Below are positions 80 through 4,583 of a stretch of 22,360 nucleotides of DNA, piece by piece. The stretch's first letter is position 1; the number at the start of each line of letters is the position of its first letter. Source of the DNA: Salinisphaera sp. UBA6602 (lineage in GTDB: Bacteria > Pseudomonadota > Gammaproteobacteria > Nevskiales > Salinisphaeraceae); the NCBI GenBank assembly GCA_002433465.1, contig DJIE01000079.1, forward strand, positions 1 through 22,360, read 5' to 3'. The notes below the pieces were generated by a model. It worked only from the letters and a program-made list of their open reading frames with translations, did no database searches and was not told the DNA's origin. A program made the translations under genes and the position numbers.

Positions 80-228
80 GCAGAGCGCAGCCACGAGCGA
101 CAACTCAGTTCGCAGCTGTAACGACTCATGACTACGGGCCAACGCGCCTGTATTCGGGGCCCGTGAGCATCGCCGTGAACCGGCATGCTTCACGCCGGCG
201 CGTAACCCGGGCGTCCTTTTCTTTGCCT

Positions 229-274
229 ACTTTCGTTTGGACGAGCAAACGAAAGTGGGTCGCGCTGCAGCGCG
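229..274. repeat. Double inverted repeat (intergenic repeat element)
   Basis: ACTTTCGTTTG (229-239) pairs perfectly with CAAACGAAAGT (246-256) around a six-base loop. It is followed at once by a 14-base perfect palindrome, CGCGCTGCAGCGCG (261-274). The pair resembles a repeat scattered between genes in many proteobacteria, whose translation gives spurious short ORFs rich in 'KVGRAAAR'-like words. I see no credible gene in 1-484, so these hairpins are the main content of that stretch. Confidence 0.5.
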
Positions 275-484
275 AAGCAAAAGGTCCAACAAACTCGTGA
301 GCGCCGAACGACGCGCCCTCCGACTAACTCCCTTCTTCCTTGCCGAAAAACACGCCAAGCCGTCGTGCCAGGTTAAAACCGCATTAGACATTTGGCTCAG
401 GTCGTCGCCTTTCACCCCAAAACGCATTTGCCGAGCAAGCGGAATCCGCTAATGTCGTGAAACAGCCAAGGCGAGGGGGCGCAC

Positions 485-878
485 TTGGAAACTCGACTGA
501 ACCTGCAGCCCGGCCAGAACGGCACCAAAGCGCTCGTCAAGAAGTATGGCGAGCGGCTGGTTTGTGTGCGCTACCGATACGACGTGTCTACTAGCACAAG
601 GTACAAGACCGTCGAACTCATCGAAGAGACGCGGCCATGGCATCCGCAAGGCAGTCGTGAATCACATCTGATGGAACGTGCCGCCGATGAGCCAGTTCTA
701 CCGCATATTGGCTACGACGAAAAAGCCCTACAACAACCGTTCGCCGACACGGCGACCGATGGCGCCCGGAACGAAGGCATGGACTAGCAGCTACGGCGTC
801 GCCAAAGAACTTGGGCTGGGTCGACCGGGTTGTAGGAGATATATAGATATGGATAGTTATCTATCTAGTGCTAGATAG
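485..878 (+). pseudogene. Frameshifted small conserved protein gene
   Basis: The reading starts at TTG 485 behind a GAGGGG ribosome site six to eight bases upstream and runs well for about 60 residues (LNLQPGQNGTKALV, VCVRYRYD, KTVELIEETRPW). I remember this as a small conserved proteobacterial protein often found near mobile DNA; I know no function for it. Similarity to the remembered family then continues in three different frames: YDEKALQQ in the first frame (to about 738), VRRHGDRWRPER in the frame starting at 739, and KAWTSSYGVAKELGLG in the frame read from about 775. The coding sequence therefore appears broken by at least two frameshifts. The 3' end given is the stop of the last frame and is approximate. 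Sequencing error is a less likely alternative, since neighbouring genes are intact. Confidence 0.6.
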
Positions 879-880
879 AT
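843..880. promoter_or_regulatory. AT-rich palindrome upstream of first cassette
   Basis: ATCTATCTAG (859-868) and CTAGATAGAT (871-880) form a perfect ten-base inverted repeat with a two-base centre. A further ATAGATA (843-849) pairs with TATCTAT (858-864). It ends 15 bases before the cassette boundary at 895 and 40 bases before the start codon at 920. An operator is an inference; a hairpin or the remains of an older recombination site are alternatives. Confidence 0.4.
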
Positions 881-894
881 GTCTTCTAGTTGGC

Positions 895-901
895 GTTATG
901 C
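895..901 (+). other. Integron core site GTTATGC (left boundary of cassette 1)
   Basis: GTTATGC fits the GTTRRRY core-site consensus at six of seven positions. It is the exact reverse complement of GCATAAC at 2600-2606, which is where the R'' end of this cassette's attC should lie. That match is expected for the two ends of one cassette, since they come together in the excised circle. The sequence to the left does not look like a normal attC or attI site. Confidence 0.65.
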
Positions 902-919
902 GCCTATGAGGCTAATACA

Positions 920-2605
920 ATGACCTTGGCACTTGTGCGAAATGAGCTCAATCGCTTCTTGGCGGAACCGAGTGCCGAGGTGCTGGCGATTCGGGGCAAA
1001 TGGGGTGTGGGCAAGACTTACAGCTGGAATCGAATTCTGGAAGATGCAAATCGCCGCGATCGGATTTCGCGTAAGCGCTATGCCTACTTGTCGTTGTTCG
1101 GAATCGGTACATTGGATGAGTTGCGTTTTTCCCTTTTCGAGCAATCCATCAATCGGTCTCTTATCGGAAAGCCGCCAACGCTGGATACGTTCCGTGATAA
1201 TGCTTCACAGCTCTCCATGTCGCTCGGGCGTAAAGCTTGGAGGCTTGTCAGCTCAACTCCCTATATGAAGTCCGTCTCTCCAGCGCTTGAGGCGGTTTCG
1301 TTTTTCTCCATTCGAGACATGCTGATCTGCCTTGACGATCTGGAGCGCCGTAGCGAATCCCTATCTGCTCGCGATGTTCTCGGTTTAGTCTCTTTGCTGA
1401 AAGAACAACGAAATTGCAAGGTCGTGCTTTTGTTGAATGATGGTGAAGATGGCCTTGAGGATTTCGAGAAGTACCGGGAAAAGGTCGTCGATGTCGAGCT
1501 TCTATTCGACCCTACCGCGAAAGAGTGCTCGGAAATCGCCTTTCATGAAACCACGCCACTGTATCAATCCGTCGGCGAATTGAGTGAACGACTTGGAATT
1601 ACCAATATCAGGACTCTTAAAAAGATTGAGCGGTTGGTCGGATTGGTAGAGTCGAGGTTAAGTGATTTGGGGCAAGACGTAACTCATCAAGTTTTGCATT
1701 CTTTGGTACTTTATGGCTGGTGTCACTATCGGGCTGATGACCCAGCAGTCCCGCCATTGGACTATGTCCAAAACATTGGATACGTGTTATTTGGACTCGG
1801 TGGAAGGGATGATCTAACTGACGACGAGAAAGCCTGGAACACGAAGTTGCAAAACTACGGATATCAGGTGACTGATGAATTGGATGAAGTGCTGGCGAAC
1901 GCGGTTAGGACAGGTTACGTCGTAGACGCAGAGTTTGATGAGGCCGCGTGGAAGAAAAACCAACAGGTAATCGCAGCAAAGGCTACAGGCTCTTTCTCCG
2001 ACGCTTGGCGTACATACCACGAAAGTTTTAATAATGATCAAGATGCTGTGGTTAAAGCCCTTTACGAAAGCTTCAAACTGAACGCTAAGCACGTCACTCC
2101 GACCAATTTGAACGGGACCGTCTGTCTATTCCGCGAACTTGGCGAGGATGCGAAGGCGGACGAGATAATCGATTTCTATGTAGATATCAGAGCCGATGAA
2201 CCGGAGCTATTTAACTTAGATGATTATCCATTTGCAGGTGATATTTCCGACGCGGCAGTCCGCGAGGCCTTCGGCAAGGCATACGAAGGTACGCAAGTGC
2301 CCGAGCCGGTTAAGGATGTCCTCTTGCGGCTCTGCGGCTCGAACGGATGGAGCGACAAAGATGAAGTCGTTCTCGCTAACGTTTCCGTGGATGAATATTA
2401 CGAGCTGTTCAAGGCCGAGAATGGCCGCCACTTGACCGGCATCATCAATGCTTGCCTTAGGTTCGGTCAGTTTTCAAACGCAAGCGAGCGTCAGAAGAAG
2501 ATTGCTGCTGATGCAACCGAGGCTCTCGTTAGAATCGGAAACGAAAGCGCCATAAACGCGCGCCGCGTCAAGAAATTTGGTGTTGAAGTAGACAGTGGCG
2601 CATAA
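920..2605 (+). CDS. KAP-like P-loop NTPase, integron cassette 1
   Basis: A 561-residue protein with a P-loop NTPase domain at the N-terminus. Walker A is GKWGVGKT (residues 26-33), Walker B is LICLDDLER (135-143), and a sensor-like asparagine follows a hydrophobic strand (VVLLLN, about 168-173). The arrangement and the 'LDDLER' word fit the KAP group of STAND-related NTPases. The long C-terminal part (about 240-561) is helical-looking, has no motif I recognise, and could be a sensing region. ATG 920 was chosen over an upstream TTG at 890 because GAGG (908-911) sits eight bases before it and because 890 lies outside the cassette boundary at 895. The stop codon lies inside the attC end GCATAAC, typical of cassettes. 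GC is lower than in the flanking chromosome. KAP NTPases occur in several phage-defence loci; a defence role here is inference. Confidence 0.82.
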   Translation: MTLALVRNELNRFLAEPSAEVLAIRGKWGVGKTYSWNRILEDANRRDRISRKRYAYLSLFGIGTLDELRFSLFEQSINRSLIGKPPTLDTFRDNASQLSMSLGRKAWRLVSSTPYMKSVSPALEAVSFFSIRDMLICLDDLERRSESLSARDVLGLVSLLKEQRNCKVVLLLNDGEDGLEDFEKYREKVVDVELLFDPTAKECSEIAFHETTPLYQSVGELSERLGITNIRTLKKIERLVGLVESRLSDLGQDVTHQVLHSLVLYGWCHYRADDPAVPPLDYVQNIGYVLFGLGGRDDLTDDEKAWNTKLQNYGYQVTDELDEVLANAVRTGYVVDAEFDEAAWKKNQQVIAAKATGSFSDAWRTYHESFNNDQDAVVKALYESFKLNAKHVTPTNLNGTVCLFRELGEDAKADEIIDFYVDIRADEPELFNLDDYPFAGDISDAAVREAFGKAYEGTQVPEPVKDVLLRLCGSNGWSDKDEVVLANVSVDEYYELFKAENGRHLTGIINACLRFGQFSNASERQKKIAADATEALVRIGNESAINARRVKKFGVEVDSGA

Positions 2606-2674
2606 CAAATCGCTGTAGTTGACCGTCCAAAGCGCTGTCACTCTTCGGTCGGCAGCCGAGTTTTGGCATTACGC
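2600..2674 (+). other. attC site of cassette 1
   Basis: R'' is GCATAAC (2600-2606) and the R' position holds ATTACGC (2668-2674). Between them 2613-2634 folds onto 2641-2660, with only two unpaired bases on the left arm (G2615 and A2622), few mismatches, and a short loop (2635-2640). Extrahelical bases at these places and a length of about 75 bases are the hallmarks of attC recombination sites. The R' sequence begins ATT where the consensus has GTT, so this boundary may no longer recombine well. Confidence 0.78.
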
Positions 2675-2688
2675 AAAATGAGTAGTTT

Positions 2689-3687
2689 ATGAGGTTGTAC
2701 GACTGGAACGAGTTAGAAGAGCATTTTCAAGACACGGTAATACTGGGAAACGGCGCGAGTATTAGCGTGGACAACCGGTTTGCTTACAGCTCTTTACTAG
2801 AAAAAGCTCGTCAAACTGGGTATATCACAGATTCTATCTCCCAGGTGTTTGAGCATTTTGAGACCTCTGACTTCGAATTGGTTTTAGAGATGCTATGGCA
2901 CGCGTCCCATATTAATGAGGCTTTGCAGGTTCGAGACCAAAAAACTCACCAAGCGTATCAAGAGGTAAGAGCCGCGCTAATAAATGCAGTGAGGCAAGTG
3001 CATCCTGAATATGAAGACGTAAACGATTGTGTGTTGAAAATTGGACAATTTCTAAAAAATTTCAAGACGGTTTTCGCTCTTAATTACGACCTTTTGACAT
3101 ATTGGTCAATGTTAAGATTCAATGGCGATATGGGCGGTATTTGGTTTAAAGACTGTCTAATTGATGGAGTGCTCGACCCAAATTGGACAAGATTGCGTGA
3201 GCCTTATCGAGCAGATGGTGCGACACTAGTGTTTTATCCGCACGGGCATCTGGCTTGGGCATCTAGCTTGTCGGGTCAAGAAATAAAGATAAATGCGTCT
3301 CGAATGAATAGCTTGTTAAACTGTATTTTTGATGCTTGGCAGACCGCAAAATTTTCTCCAGTTTTTGTAAGCGAAGGCGATACAAGTCAGAAAGTTAACT
3401 CTATCTCTCGCAGCCAATATTTAAGCACCGTTTTCAGGCAAGTTTTTCCAGAAAAAAAGCAATCGCTTGTAATCTACGGCTGGTCCTTGGGGGACCAAGA
3501 TACGCATATATTAAAGCAGCTTGAAAGTGCTCGAATTCCATTATGTGCCGTGTCCGTCCACAGTGGGGTGCCGAATAAAGAAAGATACTGCGATGACATA
3601 AAAGCTAAACTTAAGAGATATCTAAATAATAACCTTAAGGTTTATTTTTTCGACGCATCCAGTCCAGGAGCTTGGATAAATGCATAA
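2689..3687 (+). CDS. DUF4917 / SIR2-like protein, integron cassette 2
   Basis: A 332-residue protein that I place in the DUF4917 family, which has a SIR2-like Rossmann fold. The visible marks are the nucleotide loop GNGAS (residues 20-24), ALNYDLLTYW with N132 and D134, YPHGHL with H185 and H187, and VIYGWSLGDQDTHIL (261-275), a SIR2-type closing motif. In NAD-cleaving SIR2 domains the asparagine and histidine are the catalytic residues, so an NADase effector is plausible but unproven. ATG 2689 follows the cassette boundary at 2668 by 21 bases; only a weak TGAG lies upstream. The stop overlaps the next attC end (GCATAAA). Base composition is strikingly AT-rich for this replicon (18 of 60 G+C in line 3001, 28 of 60 in line 3181), a sign of transfer. 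The gene before it is a KAP NTPase on its own cassette. Confidence 0.78.
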   Translation: MRLYDWNELEEHFQDTVILGNGASISVDNRFAYSSLLEKARQTGYITDSISQVFEHFETSDFELVLEMLWHASHINEALQVRDQKTHQAYQEVRAALINAVRQVHPEYEDVNDCVLKIGQFLKNFKTVFALNYDLLTYWSMLRFNGDMGGIWFKDCLIDGVLDPNWTRLREPYRADGATLVFYPHGHLAWASSLSGQEIKINASRMNSLLNCIFDAWQTAKFSPVFVSEGDTSQKVNSISRSQYLSTVFRQVFPEKKQSLVIYGWSLGDQDTHILKQLESARIPLCAVSVHSGVPNKERYCDDIKAKLKRYLNNNLKVYFFDASSPGAWINA

Positions 3688-3755
3688 AAAACGCTGCAGT
3701 TGACCAACCAAAGCGCTGCTGCGCTTCGGCCGGCAATTGAGATTCGACGTTAGTT
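3682..3755 (+). other. attC site of cassette 2
   Basis: R'' is GCATAAA (3682-3688) and R' is GTTAGTT (3749-3755). Bases 3694-3716 pair with 3721-3741 around a TGCT loop, leaving only G3696 and A3703 unpaired on the left arm, the same two places as in the attC at 2600. Three A/C oppositions on this strand (3706/3731, 3707/3730, 3710/3727) become T-G wobbles on the other strand, so the bottom strand folds better, as expected for attC. About 40 of the inner bases are shared with the first site (CGCTG.AGTTGACC, CCAAAGCGCTG, CTTCGG.CGGCA). Confidence 0.78.
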
Positions 3756-3852
3756 ATCAGGTCTATTGGTGAACAGCAACACGCCCAGACTGCTTGCGCC
3801 CATTCCGGTGACAGCATATTTAGGTACCGCCAAGTCGAGCGAAACATGAGCC

Positions 3853-4440
3853 TCAGGCAGCAGCCTTCACCACAGGCTGTTCAAACAACCCCGCATCCAA
3901 CCACTTCAAACTCCCAATCCATAATCCCGCATGGTCCACGCCAATCTGGCGATTGACGACGTGAAACTTAGAGCGGCCGGCGTCAAACAGAATCAACCTG
4001 TTGTCCGGTCCGGCGACGGCGGAGATGAGCTGTAGAAAGGCTGGATCGGCGATCAGGCCGCGATGCCGGCGCGCGAGCGGGCGCAGGATGTCGTGTACGA
4101 GATGCCAGGTATCCGAGTAGGCCGGATCGCGGATGGGCAGGGTGAAGCTGCCGTTGTGCATGAGATACAGGCCGGGTTCGATCTCGAACGGGTGGGCGTT
4201 GCAGGCGTTGACGTCGCCGTGGGTACGCCGGCGCAGGTGGATGGCCAGCTCGGAATCGGTATGGGCACGTAGAAAGTCGATGGTGCGCGTGGCGTCGACG
4301 TCGACATGGCGTTCGAGCACGGTGTCGCCGTTCGCGGTATGGCCCATCACGCCCCAGCCATCGGCATTATGCAGAGCCGCCGAGCGGATGATCGGCTCGG
4401 GTACGGCGATGCCGGCGGGTTTATGAATCAGTACGCACAT
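3853..4440 (-). CDS. Class II glutamine amidotransferase domain protein
   Basis: A 195-residue stand-alone Ntn-hydrolase domain of the glutamine amidotransferase class II type. The initiator Met is followed directly by Cys2, the catalytic N-terminal nucleophile exposed when Met is removed. Further family marks are DGWG (27-30), HLRRRTHG (68-75), AHPF (82-85) and MHNGSF (94-99), which form the glutamine site and oxyanion region. No synthase domain follows, so the ammonia acceptor is unknown; similar short proteins occur in phages and bacteria. ATG 4440 has GGAG eight bases upstream. It lies between the cassette cluster and cysB and is read toward the cassettes. Its GC matches the chromosome, so it is probably resident rather than part of the island. 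Confidence 0.8.
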   Translation of the reverse strand: MCVLIHKPAGIAVPEPIIRSAALHNADGWGVMGHTANGDTVLERHVDVDATRTIDFLRAHTDSELAIHLRRRTHGDVNACNAHPFEIEPGLYLMHNGSFTLPIRDPAYSDTWHLVHDILRPLARRHRGLIADPAFLQLISAVAGPDNRLILFDAGRSKFHVVNRQIGVDHAGLWIGSLKWLDAGLFEQPVVKAAA

Positions 4441-4583
4441 GGGTCGTTCTCCAGCGATGCGGGGCCCGGTGTGCCCGGGCGTATCCAGCGACGTGTTTCG
4501 AGCGAAGACGTTAGCGGAGGTTTGGTATGGCTAGAACTGAGAAAAATCGCTTTGCTATTCGGCTCGGTTCATAAGGCCGGGCG

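Follow-up and report, generated by a model that had tools for sequence, protein, structure and literature searches.

Background

Integron cassettes carrying phage defence genes have reportedly been published by Kieffer 2025 and Darracq 2025, in a different genus and with different genes from those treated here, and it is in this sense already known that integrons store defence genes. Close to the present genes stand also the Nezha system, in which a HerA gene lies beside a SIR2 gene, and the KAP proteins PifA and Tmn, which are said to exclude phages and to bear membrane segments. Herein we analyse a stretch of DNA from Salinisphaera sp. UBA6602 (the window, 22,360 bases, being the entire contig C232 of a draft genome of 3.37 Mb in 275 contigs), where a gene for a KAP-type AAA+ P-loop nucleoside triphosphatase (NTPase) is followed by a gene of the DUF4917 family. 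A sequence-only reading of the window had proposed the two as a two-part defence system. Our analysis leads with good confidence to another explanation, namely that they are probably two independent single-gene phage-defence cassettes set side by side by integron recombination; what is added to the known cases is another genus with a chromosomal integron storing single-gene defences.

Independent distribution of the two families

Both open reading frames (ORFs) were recovered at the positions claimed before, on one strand and with a gap of 83 bases, and this arrangement speaks for a true two-part system, where KAP would sense the phage and activate the nicotinamide adenine dinucleotide-degrading (NADase) activity of DUF4917, as HerA does with SIR2 in Nezha. 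The clusters to which the two proteins belong represent 21 and 24 contigs and have the same longest contig, of 58,655 bases. This hints indirectly in the same direction, as the species may keep the pair stably. When co-occurrence was checked across other genomes, none was found beyond this site among the loci examined: a DUF4917 gene is present in 0 of 72 KAP loci outside the window, and a KAP gene in 0 of 40 DUF4917 loci. The KAP loci comprise 31 from named genomes (one being a 34-residue match, not re-found by the hidden Markov model), 6 from plasmids, 5 from a genome sample and 30 from viral contigs; the DUF4917 loci comprise 1 sibling cassette, 7 plasmid stretches, 2 E. coli stretches (the same island as one of the 7 plasmid stretches), 13 from the genome sample (two being fragments from one genome, with a weak place in genome G380 dropped) and 17 viral contigs. 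The plasmid records opened were 7 of 33 for DUF4917 and 6 of 128 (40 listed) for KAP, and the flanks range from almost nothing at contig ends up to 10 kb, so that farther partners would be missed.

In the sample of 398 genomes, KAP was found in 6 (expectation value, E, 1e-30) and DUF4917 in 14 (E 0.001; 13 over the cut-off), and both only in the window's own genome; because by chance no more than about 0.16 shared genomes are expected in the remaining 397, this sample alone says little. Within the genus, the sibling genome G004 carries DUF4917 in a cassette of one gene, flanked on both sides by attC sites, in an array of 11 attC sites near the integron integrase IntI; this copy is 44% identical to that of the window, and no KAP gene was found in G004 at E 1e-10. 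Across the 13 other genomes of the genus, DUF4917 is present in 1 and KAP in none.

The two families are therefore distributed independently in the loci examined. Because of the missing co-occurrence and the lone DUF4917 cassette in the sibling, the functional pair was rejected as the main explanation, and a true two-part system is considered very unlikely; the pairing proposed by the sequence-only reading is not borne out, while its fallback, each gene acting alone, fits best. In fact, adjacency within a cassette array is no evidence for a system. In the suggested check with PADLOC, the two families are listed as separate entries (KAP as PDC-S49, DUF4917 as PDC-S21). We take PDC names to mark phage-defence candidates and S to mean single genes, the label PDC-S21 presumably denoting an unproven single-gene candidate. 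No mention of PDC-S21 or PDC-S49 was found in a literature text search.

The DUF4917 protein and its genomic contexts

The DUF4917 protein matches PF16263 with 318 bits (E 8e-95) and the PADLOC model PDC-S21 over its full length (residues 2-331, 355.8 bits, E 5.8e-107). The SIR2 motifs pointed out before (GNGAS, N132/D134, H185) are real and near-invariant: N21, G22, S24, D134 and H185 are kept in all 152 sequences, G20 in 151 and N132 in 149. A SIR2, sirtuin-like fold was found as well, and the solved folds nearest to it are the SIR2 proteins of SIR2-HerA complexes, which is a point for the two-part system; so is the effect of herA deletion, which raised plaquing in V. cholerae (PMC11559045).

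The predicted DUF4917 protein is most likely a SIR2-type NAD+ glycohydrolase, which would be held inactive until infection alters its assembly state or binds it, and which, once activated, would drain NAD+ and thus stop the cell (abortive infection). That it instead uses its SIR2 fold on a host target (by removing acyl groups or transferring ADP-ribose) or belongs to an addiction cassette, and is not a phage-triggered NADase, seems unlikely to us. In both E. coli genomes opened, and in one plasmid with the same island, DUF4917 is flanked by retron Eco8 on one side and ABC-3C genes on the other, and 36 of 5,426 E. coli genomes carry near-identical copies of one DUF4917 gene; plasmid neighbours include a TIR gene (one stretch) and toxin-antitoxin genes (two stretches), and other neighbours scanned in viral contigs include tail genes, integrase and polymerase. 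No match to DUF4917 was found in the phage records.

The KAP protein and its genomic contexts

Taken from the upstream TTG (571 residues), the KAP ORF reaches PF07693 with 20 bits, the curated cut-off being 20, and only residues 30-56 (the P-loop) are aligned, so its membership is marginal. Its Walker residues G26, G29, G31, K32, T33 and D139 are kept in 61 of 61 sequences and D140 in 60, and its sensor residues are likewise conserved in at least 60 of 61. The NTPase module, with AAA+ fold, spans residues 1 to about 280, and the remainder is helical, with no apparent transmembrane segment (hydropathy maximum 1.2). From the outset the protein had been described as a P-loop NTPase whose C-terminal region is unassigned, which agrees with the kept Walker A and B motifs and with the lack of matches from about residue 280. 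The match to PDC-S49 (E 2.1e-18) places ORF residues 33-213 on model positions 28-203 of 624 only, and six KAP relatives that were scanned also have PDC-S49 as their best PADLOC match. Against BFVD the KAP model gave AAA+ matches only (best E 7.4e-5), and a profile search of solved structures by sequence, for both families, gave a single match (E 0.33), to a hemagglutinin chain, that we took as chance. The KAP model matches AAA+ modules of the ORC/Cdc6/TnsC type, which counts against the two-part system; HerA is absent from its match lists, which cannot exclude HerA. The KAP protein is most likely a sensor or switch driven by ATP, which would react to a phage product through its AAA+ module and helical C-terminal part.

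Among the 30 viral contigs with KAP relatives, a P2-type portal gene lies downstream within about 1.3 kb in 20 (by tblastn), 16 of which have gpA too, and the remaining 10 have no portal; by PHROGs, the portal was named in 3 contigs scanned and gpA in 2. The 20 contigs are L150-L154 and L156-L170, with KAP upstream of the portal. The interval from gpA to the portal gene gpQ in P2 is a hotspot of antiviral genes, as two studies describe (PMC9122126, PMC9519451), and a word search of the main text of PMC9122126 gave no KAP gene, its two 'kap' matches being an author's name. The KAP family thus often occupies the defence slot of P2 prophages, and there it stands beside the portal without DUF4917, contrary to what a two-part system would lead one to expect. 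In phage records at large, KAP matches number 7 among 50,697, with 1 covering at least 80%.

More distant KAP relatives (about 25% identity) were found on plasmids of about 105-120 kb in Klebsiella, Salmonella and Citrobacter. For example, in L059, a Klebsiella plasmid of 110 kb, such a relative stands beside phage tail genes; this is probably a phage-plasmid, and many records of similar size appear in the plasmid search. In Sinorhizobium (L100:5467-9713), a KAP relative begins 14 bases past a row of ThiF, Mov34/JAB and small genes, and in Agrobacterium (L099:8001-10830) a KAP relative precedes a TIR gene.

Judged alone, each gene likely has the defence role that had been supposed, with relatives of KAP in the P2 slot and relatives of DUF4917 in the Eco8/ABC-3C island; we infer phage defence itself, the loss of NAD+, what triggers either protein and the way in which KAP would stop a phage.

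Cassette structure of the locus

The features of the locus are collected in Table 1. The attC sites were searched with a 26-base core pattern built from the two repeats, allowing at most 3 mismatches, which gave 15 places in the genome and 0 in a backwards control. The contig C245, separate from that of the window, holds 7 of the 15 places and an integron integrase (475 bits), and the integrase family is above cut-off in 12 of the 14 genomes of the genus. Both genes hence lie on integron-type cassettes, just as the sequence-only reading had it. The homology to the locus L127 of the sibling G003 stops at window 897, the final base of the core GTT, and GTTATGTGCC stands at the equivalent place upstream of the gene for a KAP relative in Desulfuromonas. 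Between the same flanks, G003 carries other genes and attC sites, including an ApeA-type gene; its matching locus is on C8 and its integrase on C31, so the array appears to sit away from the integrase. The best explanation is that the adjacency arose at a cassette locus lying apart from the integrase, the genus possessing a chromosomal integron.

Table 1. Features of the cassette locus in window coordinates
Feature	Position	Strand	Remarks
Left flank of cassette array	193..897	.	88% identity to sibling G003 L127 13699-12995
Core recombination site GTTATGC, left edge of KAP cassette	895..901	+	End of homology to G003
KAP-type AAA+ P-loop NTPase	920..2605	+	561 amino acids; ATG at 920
attC site 1, between KAP and DUF4917	about 2600..2674	+	R'' GCATAAC, R' core ATTACGC (GTT lost); pattern match at 2612, 0 mismatches
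DUF4917 protein	2689..3687	+	332 amino acids; SIR2 fold, predicted probable NAD+ hydrolase
attC site 2, right edge of DUF4917 cassette	about 3682..3755	+	R'' GCATAAA, R' core GTTAGTT; pattern match at 3693, 0 mismatches
Right flank, class-II glutamine-amidotransferase-like gene 3853-4440	3851..4452	-	86% identity to L127 4828-4222

The gene of the right flank scores 20.3 bits against PF13230, under the cut-off of 23. On the left, an ORF at window 485-878 is broken across two frames, with an intact counterpart of 120 amino acids in G003 (L127:13046-13408). Scans of the window with Rfam at gathering threshold and for tRNA gave nothing.

Weighing the evidence

Several observations weigh against two independent defence cassettes. 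Among the 20 E. coli copies of DUF4917 listed, an IS1 splits at least 6; some other plasmid neighbours of this family are arsenic, metabolic or plasmid-maintenance genes; and it adjoins a P2 portal in only 1 of 17 viral contigs. No sensor domain is recognised in the DUF4917 protein, which leaves a partner plausible. A mutation in the attC separating the genes could, finally, lock the pair together. Against full function of the attC sites, the bottom-strand folding of attC 1 and attC 2 is matched by 53 and 14 of 200 shuffles, which is no clear excess. Among 46 sites of this genome and its siblings, the core triplet is GTT in 43, and 2 are unreadable by the arm pattern, one of them being GTT by eye (the pattern was set to accept the ATT arm, and other deviant arms were possibly missed); the junction between KAP and DUF4917 has ATT at window 2668-2674. 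A GTT core is therefore not found at every junction, as it stands before KAP and after DUF4917 with ATT between.

With GTT lost in attC 1, the integrase may no longer part the two genes, which favours the two-part system, and because of this mutated core the pair reading, though weak, stays alive. It could also be imagined that the lost GTT welded two single-gene defences into a double cassette, which selection keeps since KAP now controls DUF4917, that is, a nascent Nezha-like pair of sensor and effector put together by an integron; we regard this as highly unlikely. The same sites bear on whether one or both genes are decaying passengers without present function: attC 1 has a mutated core, attC 2 is deviant, and a simple scan of the + strand in 700-3900 gave no promoter-like site above shuffles, but both reading frames are uninterrupted with all conserved site residues present, and we find such decay quite improbable. 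Independent cassettes are thus retained as the preferred explanation.

Other cassettes of the genome and its siblings

Further cassettes of defence type in this genome and its siblings count in favour of independent defence cassettes. Ten other cassette-region proteins of this genome were compared with PADLOC: a CD-NTase and a Cap15 protein match strongly, a GIY-YIG protein matches PDC-S57, 3 match weakly and 4 have no match. Of 7 proteins from sibling arrays, two of ApeA type and the DUF4917 of G004 match strongly, 1 weakly and 3 not at all. On contig C250 of the window's own genome, L018:4541-6081 is a CBASS-type cassette with the CD-NTase (Cyclase E 1.9e-142) and a Cap15/2TM effector (PF18153 E 1.1e-18), preceded by an attC core at L018:6188. 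The ApeA-type (Cas13-ApeA/PDC-S58) cassettes at L127:5693-7081 and L089:10565-11956 are 93% identical, one being in G003 at the window's own locus and the other in G004, two cassettes from DUF4917. The GIY-YIG/T5orf172 cassette matching PDC-S57 is at L016:4655-5338, in an array beside the integrase.

Comparison with known systems

For KAP, the AAA+ modules of ORC/Cdc6 and TnsC, together with RdrA of RADAR, are among the closest known. Compared with these, its helical part from about residue 280 is without counterpart in the match lists, a region which the lists barely probed, and no RADAR deaminase is seen beside the gene. With no apparent membrane segment, it differs from PifA and Tmn as these are described.

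For DUF4917, the SIR2 subunit of Nezha shares about 11-15% identity with a Foldseek template modelling score of only about 0.53, and DUF4917 moves as a single gene. Its neighbours here are KAP_NTPase and GATase-like in Pfam, with no HerA model; because no HerA gene adjoins, membership in Nezha was rejected. DUF4917 resembles the NADase half of Nezha in its likely working, and belongs to the DUF4917 family (PDC-S21), from which no difference was found. It is proposed as a predicted SIR2 NADase with kinship in fold to the Nezha SIR2 and no sensor recognised, and if it works alone, the question of how phage is sensed by an almost bare SIR2 domain becomes a pointed one. Altogether, the families PDC-S21 and PDC-S49 gain a testable biochemical assignment. 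As for the integrons of Kieffer 2025 and Darracq 2025, they reportedly share with the present case single-gene cassettes of defence type that bear attC and are accompanied, within one genus, by other defence cassettes.
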